From Cyanobacteria bacterium FACHB-471 (GTDB taxonomy: Bacteria > Cyanobacteriota > Cyanobacteriia > Elainellales > Elainellaceae), in NCBI GenBank assembly GCA_014695345.1, contig JACJOC010000087.1, positions 62,001 to 126,000 on the forward strand: DNA of 64,000 nucleotides, read 5' to 3'. The notes below the pieces were generated by a model. It was given only the letters and a program-made list of their open reading frames with translations. It made no database searches and had not been told where the DNA came from. Shown piece after piece: positions 28,540 to 47,831 of this stretch (the first letter of the stretch is position 1; every line of letters begins with the position of its first letter). The translations under genes and the position numbers were made by a program.

Positions 28540-30507
28540 TTAAGCTTTGCGCTTGCGCTGCCAGAGGGAACCTGCACCTAGCGCTCCAAACATTAGCATC
28601 GCCAGTGCAGAAGTGGGTTCTGGCACGGAGACACTTGGATCACCAGGTTCATCAGGTTCACCAGGTTCGCCAGGTTTACCGGGTTCGCCAGGTTCACTTG
28701 GCTCAGTCGGAATTTGATCCGTGGGAATTTCACCGACAAAGATGCGAGTGCTTGCATCTTCAGAATAGTCTTCTGCAGTAATTTCACCGCTCAGCACGCT
28801 GCTTACATAATCTTCAAGAGCTTGCTGGTAGGTAGTGCCCAAGTTGATAAAATCAGCACCACCAAAGGGATATTCATCCCCACCTCTAGCTAAGAAGTCG
28901 ATTGTTGCAATGGAAATGTTGGGTACGCCAGAGACAACTTGCCCGTCTTCCACAATCACAGTGCCGTCGTTCAAAATCACAGTTTTGACGCGTGTGCCAG
29001 TGGTTGTAATCTCACCTGTTACATCATCTGTAACCTGAGCTGTACCCGTTAGATCATAGGCAAACTTAAATCCAGAGATTTGGGCAAACCGTCCGTCTGT
29101 ATTTTCAACATTTGAAACAGCATTTTCCAGAATCAGTTTAAGTCGCTCTGCACTGACATCTGGCACGATGCTGACGAAGTTTGCAAACGGCAGAATGCTG
29201 AAAGTATCTAACTCTGTAAAATCACCTGCTGAGATGATGGAGTTGTTCCGAATGCCGCCTCCGTTCTGCAGAGCAATGGTAGGAGCCTCAACGCCAAAAT
29301 CATCTGCCAGGTCTGTGCCTGTTGCAAGTAGGGCGTCAGCAATCAGGTTGCCCAAGTTGGTTTCTTGGGTTCTTACTCCAGGTGTCCCAGCAGTGAAGTC
29401 GCCTCGCTGCCCGTTCAAGTCTACTTCGCTGGTTGCCAGAACGTTTTCTGCCAACGCTTCAACAGATTCCTGAACAGGCGCGATCGCCTCCGCTTGTACA
29501 CTGGGGTCAGGCGCAATCCCATCTTCTGCAAAAACACGAACAGGGCTACCGTTAAAGGAAACTACCTTCCCGGCATCGTCAAATTCAATCTCAAGTTGCC
29601 CAACATACTCATATCCTCCTGTCGTCGTGACTACAGGAATCGCATCACCATCAGCATTCGTTGCTTCTAACGGGAAAGGTCCAAAGGGTGCCGTGGTAGC
29701 GTCAGCAGGTAACAGAGGGTCGCCAGGATTTGCCAATAGTTCTTGACCGCCCCCAGAGACAATCACATCAATGCCGCTCAATTCTGAGGCAAGCGCTACG
29801 TCATTGTTAATAGACTGTAGCTGTGTCGTCAAAATGATTTTATTAACGCCTTGAGCTTCTAGAGCATTAATCTCTGCCTGCACTTCTGCGGCAACATCGT
29901 TAGGATTTTCGACAGTTACGTTTCGAGGACTGGAGATGAAGGGAAGTTCAGGCGTGATAGCTCCGATGATACCGATTCTCTCTCCGCCTTTTTCGACGAT
30001 TACGCTACTAGCAACTCGTCCTTGATCAACCAACGCTTGAAGCTGTGGTTCACCGCTGAAGTCCAAGTTTGCTGCTAAGAAGGGCACAGGAGTACTGAAC
30101 TGATCGCTACTGATGAAGTCAGCCAGGATTTCTGGTCCAAAATCAAAGTCGTGGTTGCCGAGGGCGATCGCATCGTAGCCAACTGCATCTAAGACAGCAG
30201 CGTCGTAAAACACGCCATCCTCAAGACTGGCATTGAAAGTTGTTCCTGGCAGAATGTTGTCGCCAGAGGCAATTGTGACGACTGCATCTGTGGTTGCGTT
30301 TGCTCTTAGCTGACTAATCAGCGTAGTAAATCGGGCAGCTCCTGCAATCTCACCATTGTCGCCAGCAGGCAAAAGCTTGGACTCAGCGTCATTGTTTTGC
30401 AGAAGCGTCAGTGTAAATGCCTGCGCCGGATCAGAACTCAGCAAACCGACCAGACTAATGACACCCGCAGTCAAAACTGAGGGTCTTATGAACTTGTAGA
30501 TAGTCAT
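28540..30507 (-). CDS. 5'-nucleotidase/metallophosphatase with PEP-CTERM anchor
   Basis: 655 residues. Signal peptide (LTAGVISLVGLLSSDPAQA), then a calcineurin-like metallophosphatase domain (LLQNNDAESKLL, ASGDNILPGT, AIALGNHDFDFGPE) and a 5'-nucleotidase C-terminal domain (ETNLGNLIADALL, ALQNGGGIRNN, LPFANFVSIV). A Pro/Gly/Glu linker of GEPGxPGEP repeats leads to VPEPTSALAMLMFGALGAGS..QRKRKA, a PEP-CTERM signal: VPEP, helix, then basic cluster. That implies export and processing by an exosortase. The expected activity is release of phosphate from nucleotides outside the cell, in line with the Pho-box-like promoter. A GGGAG ribosome binding site precedes the ATG. Confidence 0.93.
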   Translation of the reverse strand: MTIYKFIRPSVLTAGVISLVGLLSSDPAQAFTLTLLQNNDAESKLLPAGDNGEIAGAARFTTLISQLRANATTDAVVTIASGDNILPGTTFNASLEDGVFYDAAVLDAVGYDAIALGNHDFDFGPEILADFISSDQFSTPVPFLAANLDFSGEPQLQALVDQGRVASSVIVEKGGERIGIIGAITPELPFISSPRNVTVENPNDVAAEVQAEINALEAQGVNKIILTTQLQSINNDVALASELSGIDVIVSGGGQELLANPGDPLLPADATTAPFGPFPLEATNADGDAIPVVTTTGGYEYVGQLEIEFDDAGKVVSFNGSPVRVFAEDGIAPDPSVQAEAIAPVQESVEALAENVLATSEVDLNGQRGDFTAGTPGVRTQETNLGNLIADALLATGTDLADDFGVEAPTIALQNGGGIRNNSIISAGDFTELDTFSILPFANFVSIVPDVSAERLKLILENAVSNVENTDGRFAQISGFKFAYDLTGTAQVTDDVTGEITTTGTRVKTVILNDGTVIVEDGQVVSGVPNISIATIDFLARGGDEYPFGGADFINLGTTYQQALEDYVSSVLSGEITAEDYSEDASTRIFVGEIPTDQIPTEPSEPGEPGKPGEPGEPDEPGDPSVSVPEPTSALAMLMFGALGAGSLWQRKRKA

Positions 30508-35040: not shown

Positions 35041-38000
35041 ATGGCTTCCCCGCTACTTCTGAAAGATCTAGCCCTAATATTTAAAGCAGTAGCGGTAGCC
35101 CTGTTTTGGCTCCTACAGACCTGCATCATTTTAGTCAGGGATTTTATTGTGACTCCTCAAAAAGCTCAAATTCAAGCACTGATTAATGACATCGATAGAG
35201 TATTGGGTAAAGCCAGTCCTCGGTTGCCTTGGGTTATGTCCGGAGACGCAACCCAACAACGTCAAGTTTTAGAGCAAACTCGCAACTATTTAATTGCTCT
35301 TCAACAACAGGTGTCTGCGCCAGAATTTGAGCCAAGTAGTACGGGTGGTGATCTAGTTGCTTATGGTGCTTCAGCATCGTTGGGCGTTCAGCCGCAACCA
35401 GGACAGGGCGCAACTGTAGAATCAGCACAGCAAGTTTTGCAGGCTGTCTTGGAGGAGATGAGCTATTTGCGGGCAAACGTGATGCAGCCATTGCGCTCAG
35501 ACATTGAGGAGATGAGCCAGCGGCGAGAGAGCTTAGTTCAGGAGATCAAACAGCTTGAAGCCGAGCGACAGCAGTATGCGTTGCCCCAATCTGATGAGTT
35601 TTTCCAAACCTTAAGGGCACGTTTGCAAGAAGACCTGGCTGGGCAAATGACCCAAATGGTAGCCAGCCTGGAATCTGACAATGCAGAAATGGCTTTGGGA
35701 GCGGCGGATGAGGAGGGCGATTTAGAAGTATCGTCTCAGTCTTTGTTGACCCCCGCTCAACGCCTGAAACAGTTGCAAGCGATCCAGTCTCAGTCAGACC
35801 AACTGATTCTTAAGCTAGACACTACGCTTAGGGTTGTGTTTGACTCGCTCCAGGATAGTGTAAAGAGCTATCAAGAATCTCTAGGGCAGGGGCTTGAGCG
35901 AATGCACGGCTTTGGGCAGCAGGGTGAGGCTATGTTTGCCGCCTTGATGAGCCGCTTGGCTGGAGAATTGGGACGAGGAGCTTCTTCTTACCTTCAATCT
36001 TCAATTGAAACAACTGATTGGGAGCCGCGCCCAACTCTACAAGGAGTCGATCAACCAGTCTCATCTGGAATAACCCCCACCGATACGGTCGAGGACACCC
36101 TACCCCAACCTGGTCAGGTAACTGGAGAAGACCAATTAACTTCAGCAGATCAACTCTCTACTGAGCAGGTGAGTGATGCTGAAATTGACAAGTTATTGAA
36201 TGAACTGAATGAGATCGCTCCTTCCACAGCTTCAGATCAGACTTCGGAGCAAACAAATGTGGAAGACTCAATGTCTGCTTCTGCGGCTTCCGTTGACCCT
36301 GTTACTGATGCCGAACTAGAAGATCTTGACCTGCTGACCTTTGAGCTAGATGATTTGCCCTTGGAGGTTCCCCCTGATGCTGATGACACTACAGCATTCC
36401 AGGTCGGTGAGGACTTTCAACTGACTGAAGCAGGGATATCCACTTTTCCAGAGTCTTCGTCAGCAGAGAATACTACTCTGTTTCAGAACGATCAATTTGA
36501 GTTTCCGTTTGATGAGCCTCCTGCTGCTGATGCCAATGAGACAAATCTCACAGCAGCAGCTTCAGAACCACAGATCGCCGATTTAGATTCAGCCCTCGAT
36601 CTGCTCAATCAGCTTAGCGTTGAACTGCATGAAGAGCCTGGTGAAGACGAGCCAGAGTCAACGCCTGCCATTTTAGAGTCAGCGATTGTTCCCGAACCGC
36701 CTGACGAAGATGAATCTGAATTGCCCCCAACAGATTCGGTGGGGATGTCTGCGGCACCTGTTGCCTCACCCGACAACCTTTACAACCAGCTTGATGATTT
36801 CTATCAGAACATATTCGGTGCAGGTGAGAATGCCGCTGCTGAACAGTCTGAAGCTCGACTAACTGACCTTTCTCCCAGTGAATTAGCGGCTGATTTAGGC
36901 GTTGAGCCGATCGCTACGCCGACTTCCCCAGAGCCAGTGCAAGAAGCAAATATTCCTGGAGATCTGGTGAATGAAAGCAGTGAACAGGCGATCGCTCCCC
37001 TAGACGATGCGTTTCTCAGCAGCGAACTGAGCGATGAACTATTTGGTGGGTTGGGCGATCCATCTGAGTCAGTCGACGATACACTGCTTTCCCTTCCGCC
37101 AGAGGTTCTGGTGGATGAAACTTCAACAGACCAACCCTTAGAAGACTTTCCGCTCGACTTGGGGCTAGAAGATTTTCCACTGACCGATTTGTTGAGTGAA
37201 ACCGATCTGTTGAGTGAAACTGATTTGTTGAGTGAACCAGACAGCATTTCTGCCGAAGTTCCAGAGATGTCTTTGGCAGATGAGGAAATTCTGCCTGTTG
37301 TAGAAGATGAATCTGAGGATGTCACAGAAGAATTATTACCTCCGCCTCAGTCACAACCCACCCCTCCAGATGAAATAGATACGATTGCTAATCTGTCTGA
37401 TTTGCTGGGCTCGACTCCTGCTGAAGTTGAGCCTGAGATACAACCTGAGCTCACGGTTCAGCCTGAGGCGATCGCTCCCGTTGAAGATACCTACATCACG
37501 GCCGCTCCCGATGAAGACTTGCTGGTGACCGAAGAATCTCAAACCGATCCTCGCGTTGATCTTCAGCTCGATCCAGATGTCCTTGAGCAGTTGACGGCTG
37601 ACCTATCTAATCTAGAAGGTTTGCAGGGCAGCAACCTTTCTGCCTTAGAAGCAGATTTAGAAACGACCGAGTCACCAGATTGGACCTTCGTAGACTGGGA
37701 TGAAACAGAACCTGCGGTCGAGCCACCTCCAGCACTAGCTCCAGAGCCACTTTTAGAAGATACAGATTTCCTAGAACCAGAGATCGAGGCAGTTGAACCT
37801 GTCGTTGAGCCTTTACCCGAAGACTCAATTGAGGCGATCGTCTCCCCTGATGTGACTCCCTCTAGTTCTTCTGAAACACCCGACACGATTGACGATCTGT
37901 TTTTCCCCGATGCCTCAGATTTATCGGATTTGCTTTCCTATCAAGAAGCTCTTGCTGCTGAAGTCGCCGATCAGGAAATTAGCTCATTTGAGGACGAGGA

Positions 38001-41000
38001 GCTAGGAGATTTTGGCGATCGAGAATTAGATACCTTTACTAGCGGCTCCTTTACTGGTGGATTGAGTACAGAACTGCCACTGCTGGATCAGAACACGACC
38101 CTGTCCGATCTGTTTAGCCCTGAGCCTGATTTATCCACCGAATCAGATCTAGAACTAGAAGATGATCTGCTAGCTAATGATTTTGAAGATCTAACTTCCC
38201 CAGCTTCGTCTCAACGAGAAACCACCTTAGAAGAACTGTTTGCGATCGCTGAAGTCGATACTGCGGCTCCGCCACCCCCCCCTTCAGAGACAGAAACTTC
38301 TGACGTATTTGACCCGTCACTTGAGCAAAGCTCAGCAGAATCTTCCCAGCCCGACTACGACCTTGCGCTAGAAGACTTGTTTGCGCTACCTCCAGATGAC
38401 CTCGATGCAGCACCCCTTCCCGAGGGAGAATATGTGCCGACCGAGCAGGATGAGCTTCAGTTTACAGAACCCCCAAATTCTTCCTGGACGAGTGAAACAA
38501 CTCTGGAGGGGCTATTCGACCTGCCGGGTTCCGAAACTGCTCAACCCTCAGTTGAAATCCAAGAGCTGACCTTAAATGATTTTGTTCAAGAGGTTGCTGC
38601 TCCGGACGATGTGCCTGTTTCTCCTAGTCCGTCTGATCCGCTCGATGAATCCAGCTCAGCAGTGTTGGACTTTGCGGACTTTGAAAATCTAGAACCAGAG
38701 CAACCAAACATCCAAGAAGAACCTGATACGTTCACCCTGGAAGGACTGGATAGTCTATTTGAAGAGGTGTCTGAAGCAGAATCACAATCTTCCGCAGCAC
38801 CCTCTGATGAGCTTGACCTATCTACTGACTTTGAGCCATCTCCAGAACTGCAGGCTGCTTCTGAAGATTGGACGCTAGAGAATGTTTTTGCTGAACCCGA
38901 ACCGGCCGTCGAGTATGGCTCTGCAACTGATTTAGATTTTGATTTTCTAGAAGCAGTTCCGCCTGTCGAATATGGATCTACAACCGATTTATACACTGCC
39001 GACTTAGACTCATTAGATCTGCCTGACGTAGAGTATGGCTCTGCAACGGATCTGCCATCTTTTGAAGTGGATTCTGAGCCTGAAGCAATTTCCTCTCCTG
39101 ATCTTGATTTTTTGGGAATAGAACCAACAGACCCTGAAGACGCTGAAAAAAAAACTCTAAATTCAGACCTGACGGGGGTATCTGAACCTGATTTAGAGTT
39201 TACGGATGTAAATTTTGCGGATGCAGAGTTTGCAGAACTGACTTCGGACTTAGTCACCGAACCCGAGCTAGAAACAGAGCTCGAAGTCTTGCCAGATGAC
39301 AGTTCAGATGACAACCTAAGTTACCCCAGTGCTATGGAGGAGTCTGCGGAGCTTGAGTTGCCTGAGCTAGAGCCAGAGATAGTTTCTGGAGCAGAACTTG
39401 AGTTACCTGAACTGGAGCCAGAGATAACTCCCGAAGCAGAGACTGAGTTCGCCTTAGAGAATGGTCTGACTAATTCGACAATTGCCTCGGCAGATGACAT
39501 TTCGGCTGAATTGTCAGTCGAAGCGCCTATTGATATTCCTGAAGCTCCTACCGAAATCTCGGAAGAAGAGGGAGTAGACGATTGGAGCGATCGCCTTCCT
39601 GCTGATTTTGATCCATCTGACCTTCCTGCTGCCAGATTGGATGATGCTAACCCCTTCCCTGATATTGCATTGCTTGATCCTGGTTTTGGGCTGTCAGGTT
39701 TGGAGTCAGGGCTGCAAGGTGAAATTCCACCATCTGGAGAATCAGCCGAAGAACCAGTTGCTAAAGACTGGTATCTAGGAATCGATTTTGGCACAACCGG
39801 TATTTCTGCCGTTTTGCTCAACCGCTCAACCTGCGAACTTTACCCCATCTATTGGTCAGAGGCACGACCCCAAGATCAGGGCGGCTTCGTCGCAGATAAG
39901 TCTTTTCGGTTGCCTGCGATCGCCTATCTGTCAACCGGACGCGACACTCCAATAGATCCCAACCTGCCATCCCCAAACCAGGATCAGGCTGCCGTCACCT
40001 CAGTCGCAATTGGCTCTCTTGCCCTTGACCTCAACCAGCGCAATCAGTCTGGCGAAGCAAACTTTGATGCAGATTCTTGGAAGCTATTGCTGCGGGACTT
40101 TAAGCCCTATCTCAGTATTGGCGTTCCCCATTATTCTCCTCAAACATCGAGTTGGGAGCCTGTTTTGCAGTGGTCTGATCAACATCAGCTAGAGATGAGT
40201 TGGCTGCACCAGGCGTTACAAACGCTGTTGGCAACCCTCAGTCATCATCGCTTATCTACTCCCGCTCACTCAGCGCTGAGCTGTGCAGCCGTTGGACTAG
40301 ACGCAGCAACGTTTCAGACTGCCTTACGGCAACTTGCTGGTGTGGTCATGGGCTACCCTGCTAATTGGTCAGATACCTATAGCTTTAACATTCGAGAAGC
40401 AGTACTGGGAGCCCGACTGGTTGCCCATCCAGAGCAGATTTTCTTTATTGAAGATGCGATCGCCACTCTCCTATCGGGACTACGCAGTTCAGATGGTCGA
40501 GCCGTTGTGCTGCCCAACAATCTTTCTCAAAAACCCTACCTCTACAACACCGATTGGCAAGGCAGCACCCTGGTAATTAGCGCTGGGGCAAGTGTGACTG
40601 AGATGGCACTCGTTGACTTGCCTAGCGCTCTGCAAAATCTCACCTACCAAGATTTCACCTTACGCAGCCTTCCCTATGCCGGAAAAGCGCTCGACCAGGA
40701 CATCATTTGCCAACTGTTGTATCCCACCTGGTCACGCCAACCCCGTCGTTCTGACACTGCTTCTGAAGGTTACACGTTTAGCTCAGGACAAACTCCTAAA
40801 TCTCGTGCATTTGTAGATGGCTGGCACTGGCAACCAACCGAATCTAATTCTGAAACCATGACCTGGGCAAGTTTAGAACTAGAAAACTTAACTCTGCCCT
40901 CTGCTGGAGAGCCAGACCCCGTCAACCGACAGCGGCTACAGCAGCGGCTTGAAAGCTTACCCATGGGTCAAAGCCTACTGGACGCTGCAAGATACCTGAA

Positions 41001-41775
41001 ACTCATTTTGCAGCAGCAAGATCGGTTCAATCTAGAATTGGGCGATCAGCAGTGGACGGTGATGCGCCGAGAGTTGGGTAGCCGTGTGCTCCTGCCGTAC
41101 ATTCAGCGGCTAAACCGAGAATTAAATGCTTTGCTGACTCAGAGTGGTGTACCGATTCAATCGATTAATCAAGTGGTTTGTACGGGTGGTACAGCTTCCT
41201 TTGGGGCGATCGCCCGCTGGCTCAGGCAAAAGCTGCCAAATGCCACCATCATTCAAGACACCTACACTAACAGTCGGGCTGGTTCTACCCAGGAAAGCCG
41301 CCTTCCTACCTGTAGCCGAGTCGCGTATGGGCTAGCAACCTTACCTCTTCATCCCCAGGTACTCAACTTACCCCGGCAGCAATACAGCGACTATTTTCTG
41401 TTAATGGAATTGCTCAGAGCATTTCCTGACCAACCCCTCTCTCTCTCTCAAATCATGCAGATGCTAGAACGGCGGGGTATCAATACTCAAGCTTGCCGTT
41501 TGCACATCCTGGCTCTTCTAGAAGGACATCTTCCTCCTGGTTTGGTGCCCACTGAAAAGCACGTTGATTTGCTTGCTCAACAATCCAAGCAAAATCCAGA
41601 CTACCAAATGCTACTGGCGGCTCCATTGTTCCAAAAGCTCGACAGCCAAACCTATCGTCCTAATTACCAGCAGTGGAATCACTTCCGCAGTTATCTCAGC
41701 ACCATTACAGCCAGCACCCACCAAAAGCTGTCAGAGCCTCTCACCGTTGGGCTGAGCGTTTCTACTCAGGAATAA
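35041..41775 (+). CDS. Giant acidic protein with C-terminal Hsp70/actin-like domain
   Basis: 2244 residues. N-terminus: one membrane helix (about 11-36) then coiled coil (about 85-330, QRRESLVQEIKQLEAERQQ). Residues about 340-1570 are strongly acidic, Ser/Thr/Pro-rich and likely disordered, with recurring short motifs: TTLSDLF (1019), TTLEELF (1061), ALEDLF (1109), TTLEGLF (1153), TLEGLDSLF (1232), TLENVF (1278), VEYGS(A/T)TDL at 1290, 1309 and 1330, triple LLSETD at about 717, and tandem ELPELEPEI near 1440. From about 1576 an Hsp70-like ATPase begins: GIDFGTT (phosphate 1), EDAIATLLSGL (connect 1, 1804) and VVCTGGTASFGAIARWL (adenosine, 2045). The phosphate 2 position reads VISAGASVTEM and lacks the usual DxGGGT. 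No family name known to me. Base use matches the neighbours. Confidence 0.85.
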   Translation: MASPLLLKDLALIFKAVAVALFWLLQTCIILVRDFIVTPQKAQIQALINDIDRVLGKASPRLPWVMSGDATQQRQVLEQTRNYLIALQQQVSAPEFEPSSTGGDLVAYGASASLGVQPQPGQGATVESAQQVLQAVLEEMSYLRANVMQPLRSDIEEMSQRRESLVQEIKQLEAERQQYALPQSDEFFQTLRARLQEDLAGQMTQMVASLESDNAEMALGAADEEGDLEVSSQSLLTPAQRLKQLQAIQSQSDQLILKLDTTLRVVFDSLQDSVKSYQESLGQGLERMHGFGQQGEAMFAALMSRLAGELGRGASSYLQSSIETTDWEPRPTLQGVDQPVSSGITPTDTVEDTLPQPGQVTGEDQLTSADQLSTEQVSDAEIDKLLNELNEIAPSTASDQTSEQTNVEDSMSASAASVDPVTDAELEDLDLLTFELDDLPLEVPPDADDTTAFQVGEDFQLTEAGISTFPESSSAENTTLFQNDQFEFPFDEPPAADANETNLTAAASEPQIADLDSALDLLNQLSVELHEEPGEDEPESTPAILESAIVPEPPDEDESELPPTDSVGMSAAPVASPDNLYNQLDDFYQNIFGAGENAAAEQSEARLTDLSPSELAADLGVEPIATPTSPEPVQEANIPGDLVNESSEQAIAPLDDAFLSSELSDELFGGLGDPSESVDDTLLSLPPEVLVDETSTDQPLEDFPLDLGLEDFPLTDLLSETDLLSETDLLSEPDSISAEVPEMSLADEEILPVVEDESEDVTEELLPPPQSQPTPPDEIDTIANLSDLLGSTPAEVEPEIQPELTVQPEAIAPVEDTYITAAPDEDLLVTEESQTDPRVDLQLDPDVLEQLTADLSNLEGLQGSNLSALEADLETTESPDWTFVDWDETEPAVEPPPALAPEPLLEDTDFLEPEIEAVEPVVEPLPEDSIEAIVSPDVTPSSSSETPDTIDDLFFPDASDLSDLLSYQEALAAEVADQEISSFEDEELGDFGDRELDTFTSGSFTGGLSTELPLLDQNTTLSDLFSPEPDLSTESDLELEDDLLANDFEDLTSPASSQRETTLEELFAIAEVDTAAPPPPPSETETSDVFDPSLEQSSAESSQPDYDLALEDLFALPPDDLDAAPLPEGEYVPTEQDELQFTEPPNSSWTSETTLEGLFDLPGSETAQPSVEIQELTLNDFVQEVAAPDDVPVSPSPSDPLDESSSAVLDFADFENLEPEQPNIQEEPDTFTLEGLDSLFEEVSEAESQSSAAPSDELDLSTDFEPSPELQAASEDWTLENVFAEPEPAVEYGSATDLDFDFLEAVPPVEYGSTTDLYTADLDSLDLPDVEYGSATDLPSFEVDSEPEAISSPDLDFLGIEPTDPEDAEKKTLNSDLTGVSEPDLEFTDVNFADAEFAELTSDLVTEPELETELEVLPDDSSDDNLSYPSAMEESAELELPELEPEIVSGAELELPELEPEITPEAETEFALENGLTNSTIASADDISAELSVEAPIDIPEAPTEISEEEGVDDWSDRLPADFDPSDLPAARLDDANPFPDIALLDPGFGLSGLESGLQGEIPPSGESAEEPVAKDWYLGIDFGTTGISAVLLNRSTCELYPIYWSEARPQDQGGFVADKSFRLPAIAYLSTGRDTPIDPNLPSPNQDQAAVTSVAIGSLALDLNQRNQSGEANFDADSWKLLLRDFKPYLSIGVPHYSPQTSSWEPVLQWSDQHQLEMSWLHQALQTLLATLSHHRLSTPAHSALSCAAVGLDAATFQTALRQLAGVVMGYPANWSDTYSFNIREAVLGARLVAHPEQIFFIEDAIATLLSGLRSSDGRAVVLPNNLSQKPYLYNTDWQGSTLVISAGASVTEMALVDLPSALQNLTYQDFTLRSLPYAGKALDQDIICQLLYPTWSRQPRRSDTASEGYTFSSGQTPKSRAFVDGWHWQPTESNSETMTWASLELENLTLPSAGEPDPVNRQRLQQRLESLPMGQSLLDAARYLKLILQQQDRFNLELGDQQWTVMRRELGSRVLLPYIQRLNRELNALLTQSGVPIQSINQVVCTGGTASFGAIARWLRQKLPNATIIQDTYTNSRAGSTQESRLPTCSRVAYGLATLPLHPQVLNLPRQQYSDYFLLMELLRAFPDQPLSLSQIMQMLERRGINTQACRLHILALLEGHLPPGLVPTEKHVDLLAQQSKQNPDYQMLLAAPLFQKLDSQTYRPNYQQWNHFRSYLSTITASTHQKLSEPLTVGLSVSTQE

Positions 41776-42165: not shown

Positions 42166-42864
42166 GTGATTACCACTTCCAACCCTCCTTCTTCCTTGTT
42201 AACTCACTCACCTGCGCTGACTCACTTGAATGAGATCATTGCCTCTTCCGCAGAGGTGCATCCTTCTGTAAATAGTAAGGCTAAGCGCCTGATTGATATC
42301 CTGGGAGCGCTGGTTGGTCTAGCAATCACCGCCCTTGTGGCAATCCCAGTGGCGATCGCCGTCCAGTTTGATAACCCTGGCCCAATCTTCTACAGCCAAA
42401 TCCGTTGTGGACTGAACGGCAACACCTTCCGCATTTGGAAGTTTCGCTCAATGGTTATCGAAGCTGATGCTCTAAAGCACCTGGTTCACAATCAGGCAAA
42501 GGGCAGCATTTTCAAAAACCGCAATGACCCCCGCGTCACCAGAGTCGGTCGCTTCTTACGCCGTACTAGCCTGGATGAATTGCCCCAATTTTGGAATGTT
42601 CTCAAAGGGGAAATGAGTTTAGTTGGTACCCGTCCCCCAACCGTAGATGAAGTGATGAAGTACAAGCGCCATCACTACAAGCGTCTACTGGTTAGACCTG
42701 GAATCACCGGGGAATGGCAGGCTAACGGGCGCTCTACCGTCGAGGATTTTGAAGACATCGTCAAAATGGACATCGCCTACCAGACAAAGTGGTCAATTGG
42801 CTACGACATTGCCCTCATCTGGAAAACGATTCAGGCAGTCCTAAATAAAAGTGGAGCTTACTAA
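42166..42864 (+). CDS. Bacterial sugar transferase (undecaprenyl-phosphate sugar phosphotransferase)
   Basis: 232 residues from GTG at 42166. One N-terminal membrane helix ([27 protein letters not shown]), then the conserved core: [27 protein letters not shown] with [32 protein letters not shown], and [15 protein letters not shown]. This is the catalytic half of WbaP/WcaJ-type initiating enzymes, which load the first sugar phosphate onto the lipid carrier for exopolysaccharide. The usual N-terminal multi-helix half is absent, so it is the short form (such as HepD-like proteins). A Shine-Dalgarno AGGAG lies about 14 nt before the GTG. Confidence 0.93.
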
Positions 42865-44298: not shown

Positions 44299-45777
44299 CT
44301 AATTTGCTTCTCCTAAAACAACAGCGTGCCAGGGCTTGCGCTGTTCTCCAGTGTTGTCAAACACAACATGCTTGACGACGGTGTATTCCTCCAGCGCGTA
44401 GTAGGACATATCCTTGCCAATGCCACTTTCCTTGAAACCGCCATGAGGCATTTCACTGGCGATCGGGATGTGGTCATTGACCCAGACCGTACCGCACTCC
44501 ATCGCTGCTGACATTCGCATGGCTCGCTGCACGTTAAGCGTCCAAACGCTGCCTGCCAATCCGTAGGGCGTATTGTTTGCCAACTTAATTGCCTCAGCCT
44601 CGTCTAAGAAGCGATTGACTACCACGACTGGACCAAAGATTTCTTCACGAACACAGTTTGCATCTTCGGGCGCATCCACCAGGATAGTCGGCGGGTAGTA
44701 AAAACCTTCGCTCTCCGGCAGTTCACCACCCAAGGCGACTTTAATTCCTTGCTGACGGGCTTCTTCGACATAGCCTTTGACCTTGAGTCGCTGAGGTTCG
44801 CTGACCAGCGGACCGATATCTGTTCCTTCCTCGAACGGGTTACCGACCTTCACCTGTTTGGACAGATCAATAAAGCGGCTGAGGAACTGGTCAAATGCCT
44901 CGTTTTGCACATAAATTCGAGTGGCAGCAGTGCAGTCTTGCCCGCTGTTGACGTAGGAGGCTGCTACTGCCCCATGCGCTGCTGCCTCAACGTCCGCATC
45001 AGCAAAGACGACAAAAGGTGCTTTGCCGCCCAATTCTAGGGTGACGCGTTTGACCATTGGGCTGGCGAGTTCGGCGATGCGCTTACCCGTGCGAGTACTG
45101 CCCGTGAAGCTGATCATACGGGTGTTGGGATGGGTACAAATTGCTTCACCAACCTCGGCTCCCCCCGTGACGACGTTGATCAATCCAGCAGGGAAGCCAG
45201 AGTCGAGGGCAATCTTAGCCAGTTCAATCGTAGTGACAGGCGTATTGGGTGCGGGCTTAATTACAACGGCATTGCCTGCTGCCAGGGCTGGCCCAAGCTT
45301 CCAAATTGCCATCATGAAGGGATAGTTCCAGGGGGTAATTGCACCGACTACACCGATGGGTTCACGCCGAATCATACTGGTGTAGCCGCCGATGTAGCTT
45401 CCGGCAGCGGTGCCTTCTTGCCGACGCAGCACTGAGGCAAAGTAGCGCAGGTTGTCGATCGCAAAGGGAATGTCGCCTTCAACAGTTAGCTTCAGCGGCT
45501 TACCAGAATTTTGGCTTTCCAGCCTTGCCAATTCTTCGCTTTTAGCTTCCAGGGCATCACATAGTTTCAGCAGTGCTGCGCTGCGTTCTCCATAGGAAAG
45601 GGCGGACCAGGCGACTTGCGCTTGTTTAGCGATCGCCACCGCCTGATCAACATCTGCCTTACTTCCCAAAGCAACCGTTGCAAACACTTGTCCAGTTGCA
45701 GGATCAATTAGATCTTCGCTGCCTGTAGAGACGAGTTCTTCTCCAATCACCATTGGATAATGAATCAGCTTGTCCAT
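44299..45777 (-). CDS. Aldehyde dehydrogenase, aminobutyraldehyde/betaine-aldehyde type
   Basis: 492 residues from the ATG at 45777 (a TTG at 45795 lies upstream). NAD(P)-dependent ALDH: GVVGAITPWNYPFMMAIWKLGPALAAGNAVVIKPA, the glycine-rich ISFTGSTRTGKRIAELA, catalytic Glu in TLELGGKAPFVVF, nucleophile Cys in NSGQDCTAATRIYV, and EIFGPVVVVNRF. The overall pattern matches gamma-aminobutyraldehyde dehydrogenases such as PatD, which act in putrescine breakdown. The neighbouring PotA and PotC genes on the same strand support a polyamine link, though ALDH substrate prediction from sequence is uncertain. Confidence 0.92.
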   Translation of the reverse strand: MDKLIHYPMVIGEELVSTGSEDLIDPATGQVFATVALGSKADVDQAVAIAKQAQVAWSALSYGERSAALLKLCDALEAKSEELARLESQNSGKPLKLTVEGDIPFAIDNLRYFASVLRRQEGTAAGSYIGGYTSMIRREPIGVVGAITPWNYPFMMAIWKLGPALAAGNAVVIKPAPNTPVTTIELAKIALDSGFPAGLINVVTGGAEVGEAICTHPNTRMISFTGSTRTGKRIAELASPMVKRVTLELGGKAPFVVFADADVEAAAHGAVAASYVNSGQDCTAATRIYVQNEAFDQFLSRFIDLSKQVKVGNPFEEGTDIGPLVSEPQRLKVKGYVEEARQQGIKVALGGELPESEGFYYPPTILVDAPEDANCVREEIFGPVVVVNRFLDEAEAIKLANNTPYGLAGSVWTLNVQRAMRMSAAMECGTVWVNDHIPIASEMPHGGFKESGIGKDMSYYALEEYTVVKHVVFDNTGEQRKPWHAVVLGEAN

Positions 45778-45847
45778 AAAAACCTCTTGAATCAATGAAG
45801 AGTTAAAAATTCAAAGTGCAAAATTTGTAGAGTAGCGATATCGGTAG

Positions 45848-45890
45848 GGGCGAAGCATTCGGCACAAGAATTGTGCCGAATGCTTCGCCC
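45848..45890. repeat. Palindromic repeat (20-bp perfect stem) between potA and aldehyde dehydrogenase
   Basis: Arms 45848-45867 (GGGCGAAGCATTCGGCACAA) and 45871-45890 are exactly complementary around GAA. The outer part GGGCG(A/T)AGCATTCG recurs at 50132-50145, so this is a member of a dispersed family inside an operon. Confidence 0.7.
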
Positions 45891-45929
45891 GCACACCAAA
45901 TAGTGCTTCTTTAGGAAATGGATTTCGTA

Positions 45930-47015
45930 TCAGTCAGGGAGAAGGATGCATTCGTTAGCATTCCAGGAAAGGGACTGTTCGGGGCTGAGGTCTGCGGTCG
46001 AGCTGAGCTGAGTGACGGTGAGTAATCCGATGGGCGTTTCGACCTTAAGTTCAACGAGTTGACCAACATAGGTAACACTAGCAACTTTGCCAGAAAGTTG
46101 ATTGTCTGCTTTAGCAGTCTTAGCAGTTTCACTCAGGCACAGTCGTTCTGGACGAACCATCAGGGTTACAGCGTCGCCAATAGTGGGCGATCGCCCTGGT
46201 GAAGCTGCCCAAATCTTCGTTCCGCTAACCTCAACAGCAGCTGTTTCTCCGTTTGCTTCTAGAACTGTGCCTTTGAGAAAATTGGCTTTACCAATGAACT
46301 GAGCTACAAACAGCGAAGTGGGGCGATCGTAAATTTGCTTAGGAGTGCCAATTTGCTGCACTTGACCGTTGTGCATCACAGCGATGCGATCGGACAGCGC
46401 TAGCGCTTCCTCCTGGTCGTGAGTCACGTAGATGAAGGTAAGATTTGTTTGCTTTTGCAGATCGCGTAGCTCCTGACGCACTTCCTCCCGAATTTTGGCA
46501 TCCAGGGCAGACAGCGGTTCGTCCAGGAGTAACACTTTGGGACGGCTGATCAATGCCCTTGCCAGGGCAACTCGCTGTTGTTGTCCGCCAGAAAGTTGCG
46601 AAGGACGGCGATCGCCCATTCCTTTTAACTGAAACATCCGCAACGATTCCTCCACCCGCTCAGCAACTTCAGCCCGATTAGTTTTGGCAATTCGCAGCGG
46701 ATAGGCAATATTCTCAGCCACCGTCAAATGCGGAAACAGGGCATAGCTTTGAAACACGGTATGCACATTACGCCGATAGGGAGGCTGCTCCGTCACCTCC
46801 TCTCCGCCAATCCAAACTCGTCCATACTCAGGAATCTCAAATCCCCCAATCAACCGCAAAGTTGTTGTTTTGCCAGACCCGCTCGACCCCAACAGTGAGT
46901 AAAACTCTCCGGGCTGCACGTCAATCGTCACATCCCGCGCTGCAAAAATTTCCCCCGCTGCCGTCGGGTAAATCTTACTCACCCCTTCCAAATAAACAAC
47001 GCTACCATCCCTCAT
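45930..47015 (-). CDS. potA: ABC transporter ATP-binding protein, PotA-like
   Basis: 361 residues. Walker A GSSGSGKTT, Q-loop in VFQSYALFPHLTV, signature LSGGQQQRVALARAL, Walker B LLLDEPLSALD, H-loop FIYVTHDQEEA, and a C-terminal TOBE_2 domain (VTLMVRPERLCL). Best match is the spermidine/putrescine importer ATPase PotA. It starts 3 nt after the end of the permease gene, so the two are co-translated. The binding protein (PotD) and second permease (PotB) are not adjacent. Substrate is inferred from neighbours. Confidence 0.9.
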   Translation of the reverse strand: MRDGSVVYLEGVSKIYPTAAGEIFAARDVTIDVQPGEFYSLLGSSGSGKTTTLRLIGGFEIPEYGRVWIGGEEVTEQPPYRRNVHTVFQSYALFPHLTVAENIAYPLRIAKTNRAEVAERVEESLRMFQLKGMGDRRPSQLSGGQQQRVALARALISRPKVLLLDEPLSALDAKIREEVRQELRDLQKQTNLTFIYVTHDQEEALALSDRIAVMHNGQVQQIGTPKQIYDRPTSLFVAQFIGKANFLKGTVLEANGETAAVEVSGTKIWAASPGRSPTIGDAVTLMVRPERLCLSETAKTAKADNQLSGKVASVTYVGQLVELKVETPIGLLTVTQLSSTADLSPEQSLSWNANECILLPD

Positions 47016-47018
47016 TCT

Positions 47019-47831
47019 TCATCCCTCATCCCTTCCCACAACCCACTGACTCAGCAACACAATCCCCGTACTTGCTATTAATACCAGTGTCGCAACTGCG
47101 GCGATTTCTGGGGTAATGTCTGTTCGCAATCTGCCCCAGATTTCCATGGGCAATGTATTGTCTCGCCCAGTCAGAAAAATCGTCACGACCACCTCATCAA
47201 ACGATAATGTGAACGCCAGCAGCGCCCCTGAAACGATCGCACTGCGAATGTAAGGGAAGATTACACCGCGAAAAACCTGGGCTGGCTTTGCTCCCAAATC
47301 GTAGGCAGCTTCCTCTAGGCTCCGAGGAAACTGAGACAGCCGCGTCAAAATTGGCCCTAGCGCCACCGGCAGCCCAAATACGGCGTGCCCTAAAATCACT
47401 GTCCACAAGGAAAGCTCAAGCCCCAGGCTAGAAAAGTAAGCCAGCATTGCCACTCCTGTGACCACTCCAGGCAGCAGAATGGGCAAATTTAGCGCAATCC
47501 GAAAACTGGTTTTGCCGAAGAACTGATAGCGGTAAATTGCAAAAGCAGCTAGCAGCCCAAATCCAGTTGCCAAAAGGGTTGCCATTGCTGCTACTTGCAG
47601 CGAATTCCAGAGGGAGAGACGCAGGGAGCGATCGCCAAACGCCATCTCATACCAGTTAATAGTGAATCCCTTAAACGGCAGCGACAGAATTGCCGAATCA
47701 TTAAAACTGATGAAGATAAGAGTGGCGATCGGCAAATACAGAAAAGCGTAAACCAGGATTGTCCAGAGAGTTAAAAGCCAGGGTTGCTGCTGAGTGTGGC
47801 GTTTTTCCGTTGAAGAGGGAGCATTAGTCAT
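47019..47831 (-). CDS. potC: ABC transporter permease, PotC-like
   Basis: 270 residues with about six membrane helices, starting LTLWTILVYAFLYLPIATLIFISFND and ending IAAVATLVLIASTGIVLLSQWVVG. The cytoplasmic EAA loop EEAAYDLGAKPAQVFRGVIFP contacts the ATPase. The length and SFNDSAILSLPFKGFTINWYEMAF sequence fit PotC of the polyamine importer family. Its ATG overlaps the stop of the channel gene as TAATG, which predicts translational coupling. Normally PotC works with PotB as a heterodimer. PotB is missing here. Confidence 0.9.
   Translation of the reverse strand: MTNAPSSTEKRHTQQQPWLLTLWTILVYAFLYLPIATLIFISFNDSAILSLPFKGFTINWYEMAFGDRSLRLSLWNSLQVAAMATLLATGFGLLAAFAIYRYQFFGKTSFRIALNLPILLPGVVTGVAMLAYFSSLGLELSLWTVILGHAVFGLPVALGPILTRLSQFPRSLEEAAYDLGAKPAQVFRGVIFPYIRSAIVSGALLAFTLSFDEVVVTIFLTGRDNTLPMEIWGRLRTDITPEIAAVATLVLIASTGIVLLSQWVVGRDEG

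Follow-up and report, generated by a model that had tools for sequence, protein, structure and literature searches.

A widespread, unnamed cyanobacterial protein family with a coiled coil, a long acidic linker, and an Hsp70-like domain

Introduction

A stretch of 64,000 nucleotides from Cyanobacteria bacterium FACHB-471 (contig JACJOC010000087.1, positions 62,001 to 126,000; here called the window) contains an uninterrupted open reading frame (ORF) of 2244 codons at 35041–41775 on the + strand, raising the question of what an Hsp70-like domain does at the far end of a giant acidic protein. A first-pass annotation, made from the sequence alone, had proposed a membrane-tethered, multivalent platform composed of a membrane helix, a coiled coil, about 1200 acidic, probably disordered residues, and a C-terminal ATPase acting on bound clients. 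We find that the ORF represents a real, widespread, and unnamed family, which is a variant of Hsp70-fold proteins. Whether its members are cytosolic nucleotide-gated scaffolds, serving cyanobacteria as an assembly switch rather than as a folding chaperone, is a proposal that we put forward with about as much doubt as confidence. Residues are numbered below from the first codon of the 2244-codon frame.

Distribution of the Family and Its Fused and Split Forms

Homologues are present in 51 of 60 relatives and in approximately 157 of 291 class-wide genomes (C-domain matches with E < 1e-50), a distribution that places the ORF beyond chance. Carriers include Leptolyngbya, Nodosilinea, Nostoc, Anabaena, Calothrix, Fischerella, and Scytonema; in a phylum-wide sample, all of the matches listed fell inside the class Cyanobacteriia, and genomes of 1.6–1.9 Mb in one taxonomic family (f2) were without the scaffold family. 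The architecture is thus not peculiar to the source genome. The first-pass annotation knew of no named family that fits, and this held: Pfam and NCBIfam gave nothing above cut-off, PADLOC gave weak coiled-coil matches only, and literature searches turned up no publication that describes it. A phage, plasmid, or defense origin was considered and rejected, as there was no phage or plasmid match and the PADLOC matches were weak and to coiled-coil proteins only.

The family occurs in two layouts. In the set of loci used for the tree, 77 carry one fused gene, as does the window, and 20 carry separate adjacent genes for the coiled-coil/acidic part and for the Hsp70-like part. Mapped onto a tree of the C-domain, the fused or split state changes seven times by parsimony, with at least four changes forced by well-supported branches. 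Because the two parts lie side by side in the split layout and have repeatedly passed between the two states, we consider that they act together as one functional unit. One locus (L051, in the complete, single-contig genome G004) encodes the N-protein with no detectable adjacent C-protein. At L033, L035, and L039/L073, the C frame is not in register with the N frame, and the two overlap within the acidic linker by 128–209 nt; a recent frameshift, an assembly error, or an internal start are all possible, and the extents of these overlaps depend on a mechanical choice of start.

Fold of the C-Terminal Domain

The C-terminal part of the protein comprises two regions:

39769..41355, + strand: Hsp70-like nucleotide-binding domain (NBD), residues 1577–2105.
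41356..41772, + strand: C-terminal, mostly helical, winged-helix-like domain, found where Hsp70s have their substrate-binding domain.

An AlphaFold model of the C-domain built on a 50-sequence alignment reached a pLDDT of 83.5 and a pTM of 0.87, and its best 50 Foldseek matches in the PDB were all members of the Hsp70 family. The match to the NBD of DnaK had an E value of 2.6e-12, a probability of 1.00, and a TM-score on target of 0.63; Ssz1, BiP, and Hsp110 ranked close behind, NBD-only Hsp70 chains gave TM-scores on target of approximately 0.57–0.66, and the best matches in a viral library were likewise Hsp70s. Structure prediction thus bears out an actin-superfamily, Hsp70-type fold, placed last in the protein. 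The same genome encodes three ordinary DnaKs, to which hhalign aligned the C-domain over 231 columns (probability 82, E = 9.7e-6). Sequence divergence is considerable (approximately 12% identity to Hsp70/DnaK), and the gathering threshold of PF00012 was not reached; the window protein had no match, and six of 30 members matched, at best with E = 0.0016.

Weak Pfam matches among these 30 members were to PilM_2 (22), HSP70 (6), BcrAD (5), and MreB (2), which all belong to a single superfamily. That PilM_2 is the commonest and best single match (best E = 1.3e-5), and that PilM ranks second, beside DnaK, at the top of a PDB profile search with the C-domain, raises an alternative in which the C-domain is a PilM/FtsA-like actin-fold adaptor within a machine of the type IV pilus or of the envelope, with a short linker motif (DxLYxSLFG, see below) as its peptide ligand, by analogy with PilM–PilN. 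The likeness to PilM lies in the actin-superfamily fold. However, the match of the window protein covers only approximately 90 residues of the common Gly-Gly region and scores 17.7 bits against a PF11104 cut-off of 27 bits, and the 50 best fold matches are Hsp70s, with no PilM among them; together with the gene neighborhood described below, this makes the adaptor improbable.

The segment 3′ of the NBD is modeled as a 140-residue, mostly helical domain whose order of secondary structure elements (assigned by DSSP) resembles that of a winged helix, and the C-domain model contains no Hsp70 substrate-binding β-sandwich after the NBD. The tail domain has no Pfam match above cut-off and is missing at L038, L059, and L066. 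A winged-helix identity was not accepted, as the secondary structure is compatible but without profile support. At the position equivalent to 41203 of the window, both congeners (L031 and L032) have lost the same single nucleotide from a GGGG run next to the palindrome GCGATCGC, a loss that breaks the Hsp70-like domain; these two loci have further single-base indels, and an assembly error is possible.

Nucleotide-Binding Site

Alignment of 75 family sequences with DnaK located the following active-site elements in the window:

39778..39798, + strand: phosphate-1 motif, GIDFGTT.
40102..40104, + strand: Lys equivalent to the catalytic K70 of DnaK.
40450..40455, + strand: acidic pair at the connect-1 position (E171 region of DnaK).
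40579..40602, + strand: degenerate phosphate-2 loop, SAGASVTE as compared to DLGGGTFD.
41185..41190, + strand: Gly-Gly of the adenosine motif.

The phosphate-1 loop is well kept (Asp in 74/75, Gly in 72/75, and the second Thr in 68/75), as are the Lys (70/75), the acidic pair (first Glu in 70/75, Glu or Asp at the second position in 71/75), and the Gly-Gly (75/75 and 69/75). The phosphate-2 Asp, in contrast, is retained in just five sequences and is mostly replaced by Asn (34) or Ser (22). This pattern suggests that the C-domain is likely to bind nucleotide and that hydrolysis, if it occurs, may be slow or regulated, with fast turnover unlikely. One Hsp70-fold protein, Ssz1, binds ATP with no need for hydrolysis. 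With no substrate-binding domain, and with another residue for the phosphate-2 Asp in 70 of 75 sequences, the part of the first-pass annotation that had an ATPase acting on bound clients appears doubtful, while nucleotide binding itself remains likely.

The same data bear on whether the family could be a divergent true Hsp70 chaperone, in which clients would be handled at the expense of ATP hydrolysis and the linker or the C-terminal tail would stand in for the substrate-binding domain. The family shares with Hsp70/DnaK, including the non-canonical Ssz1 and Hsp110, the NBD fold, the order of the nucleotide motifs, and the conserved phosphate-1, Lys, connect-1 acid, and Gly-Gly residues; moreover, the DnaK1–DnaJ3 system of Nostoc punctiforme, through which polysaccharide secretion is tied to type IV pili, shows that Hsp70s can serve in a pilus and polysaccharide role (PMC9239167). 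That system resembles the scaffold family in having an Hsp70-type ATPase with a specialized cyanobacterial role but is described as a chaperone system of the DnaK type that works with DnaJ and GrpE, distinct from the scaffold family as far as the text of the paper shows (PMC9239167). The position of the NBD at the C-terminus, the lack of a β-sandwich, the loss of the phosphate-2 Asp and its GGG, a tail that three loci dispense with, and the presence of three ordinary DnaKs in the genome all set the family apart from Hsp70/DnaK, and we regard a client-folding chaperone as unlikely.

Acidic Linker, Conserved Motif, and N-Terminal Domain

Three features precede the C-domain:

35149..36075, + strand: N-terminal helical/coiled-coil domain, residues 37–345.
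36076..39768, + strand: acidic, low-complexity, probably disordered linker, residues 346–1576.
36793..36819, + strand: short motif DxLYxSLFG, here DDFYQNIFG, residues 585–593.

Between residues 346 and 1560, the protein contains 331 Asp and Glu as compared to nine Lys and Arg (net charge −322) and no Cys, in agreement with the approximately 1200 acidic residues first described. Linker length varies from approximately 400 to 1700 aa among homologues, and both composition and divergence suggest that the linker is probably disordered. Within this otherwise divergent region, a motif D-x-[LF]-Y-x-S-L-F-G stands out when compared to shuffled linkers; Y..[LIVM]FG is found in 88 of 105 linkers, those listed having a single copy each with one exception, and Y...FG was observed 89 times, as compared to 0 expected. 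In split species, the motif sits in the N-protein. Among the other ORFs of the fetched loci, DxLYxSLFG matched only once, at a locus with a fragmented copy of the scaffold gene. A repeated "TLxxLF" that is obvious in the window was discarded as a family-wide multivalent feature, as at least three copies are found in only three of 105 linkers; this repeat is therefore lineage-specific.

The coiled coil noted in the first-pass annotation corresponds to residues 126–324. An AlphaFold model of the N-domain (309 residues, 32 sequences) contains helices only, the longest at 90–143, 148–185, and 202–288 (54, 38, and 87 residues), with a pTM of 0.29, so that the packing of the helices is not fixed by the model. 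The source genome also encodes a 627-aa paralogue (C81; locus L152, 1471–3354) whose coiled-coil core is 32% identical to that of the scaffold protein over approximately 190 aa; this paralogue carries an EamA/DMT transporter where the scaffold family has the linker and the Hsp70-like domain, and ORFs of 600–700 aa resembling this paralogue were found in many relatives.

These N-terminal helices suggested a further alternative, namely a CCRP-type coiled-coil cytoskeletal protein with a polymerizing actin-like domain. CCRPs build filaments in cyanobacteria and, like the protein described here (N-domain helices of 38–87 residues), have a long predicted coiled coil (PMC7002697), and the C-domain has an actin-superfamily fold. 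A linker of 400–1700 aa would, however, probably hamper regular packing, and the scaffold family adds to the coiled coil both this linker and an Hsp70-like domain; neither Hsp70 nor DnaK is mentioned in the text of the CCRP paper (PMC7002697). We consider a cytoskeletal filament very unlikely.

Start Codon and Location of the Protein

The 5′ region of the ORF can be divided as follows:

35041..35148, + strand: in-frame stretch encoding the hydrophobic "membrane helix", likely an untranslated 5′ region.
35136..35140, + strand: Shine-Dalgarno-like CAGGG, 9–13 nt 5′ of the GTG.
35149..41775, + strand: corrected coding sequence, GTG start, 2208 aa.

In an alignment of 35 N-domains, conservation starts at residue 37, where the GTG at 35149 codes for valine; the extension upstream is unconserved. 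The aligned codon is GTG in 87 of 101 loci and ATG in one, and in 91 of the 101 loci an in-frame stop lies at most 36 codons upstream of this position. An AAGG-like ribosome-binding element is present at −12 to −9 from the GTG in approximately 80% of 83 loci. In both congeners, the upstream frame is open but has GTC opposite the ATG at 35041 of the window. For these reasons, the true start is most likely the GTG at 35149, and the first 36 codons, including the hydrophobic stretch at residues 11–32, are almost certainly untranslated. While the open frame of 2244 codons stands, the protein is thus predicted to have 2208 aa, to lack a membrane segment, and probably to be cytosolic: the hydropathy maximum is 1.29 past residue 36 as compared to 2.19 inside the extension, and no other segment reaches the level of a membrane helix. 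The conserved GTG start, therefore, rules out the membrane helix and, with it, a membrane-tethered platform. The GTG is unusually conserved for a non-ATG codon, which might reflect tuned translation; no RNA element was matched by Rfam at the gathering threshold.

Gene Neighborhood

The commonest neighbor, a gene for a CRP-family regulator, lies divergently upstream at 70 of 120 loci; DUF2232 comes next (66 loci), and then a 408-aa protein (60 loci). A unit of CRP, DUF2232, and the 408-aa protein (which has no clear Pfam family) occurs in many cyanobacteria, for example upstream at L042, L080, L137, and L143, and a separate 126-aa coiled-coil protein is often found beyond it. Conservation of neighbors was a check that the first-pass annotation suggested. 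In this genome, the orthologue of the CRP gene, whose product is 83% identical to that of L042, is on another contig; a sugar transferase, found downstream in 32 of 120 loci including the congeners, is the next gene in the window:

42166..42864, + strand: Bac_transf sugar transferase (Pfam), next gene downstream, same strand.

CRP was found in 41 of 44 genomes with the family as compared to 12 of 36 without it (E < 1e-100), which is suggestive but confounded by phylogeny. Control by CRP was rejected, as TGTGA-N6-TCACA sites were not in excess in 69 divergent intergenic regions. Since the shared intergenic region shows no such excess, we treat gene context as a lead only, weakly hinting at cAMP–CRP and envelope polysaccharide. 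This context also touches on the PilM-like adaptor: SyCRP1 controls pili in Synechocystis, where it is required for type IV pilus biogenesis (PMC2633013), but the recurrent neighbors (CRP, DUF2232, the 408-aa protein, and the sugar transferase) include no pil genes, and a pilMNOPQ context was not found.

Elsewhere in the window, an aminobutyraldehyde dehydrogenase gene adjoins that of a polyamine-type ABC transporter ATPase (44299–47831), which are probably genes for putrescine uptake and breakdown, and a 5′-nucleotidase-like protein with a possible PEP-CTERM tail (28540–30507) falls slightly under the Pfam cut-off.

Proposed Role

In the cytosolic, nucleotide-gated scaffold that we propose, the N-terminal coiled coil would oligomerize and thereby create a multivalent assembly, the acidic linker would supply reach and charge, and DxLYxSLFG would dock a partner or the Hsp70-like domain itself. 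Nucleotide binding, and not a chaperone folding cycle, would switch the C-domain between contact-making and contact-releasing states. Several points weigh against this proposal: oligomerization of the N-domain comes from helix prediction (model pTM 0.29); the functional steps, docking of DxLYxSLFG included, are deduced from sequence and models; the C-domain may tolerate the phosphate-2 substitutions and may be capable of hydrolysis after all; and the links to neighboring genes are confounded by phylogeny, with CRP sites not enriched upstream.

A bolder and rather unlikely version would make the protein a non-chaperone Hsp70, in which an NBD freed from the substrate-binding domain is an ATP-gated receptor for DxLYxSLFG, in its own linker or in a partner subunit, and nucleotide state thereby controls the assembly or dissolution of a coiled-coil array. 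The natural split forms offer constructs already divided into two subunits, and since the linker has one conserved motif, a specific interaction can be put directly to the test. This large, conserved, and widespread cyanobacterial gene, which is without a name, provides an example of an Hsp70 NBD used without its substrate-binding domain and linked instead to a coiled coil through a very long, acidic, and probably disordered region; an ATP-gated DxLYxSLFG receptor, if true, would put the Hsp70 fold to a new purpose in approximately half of the cyanobacteria.

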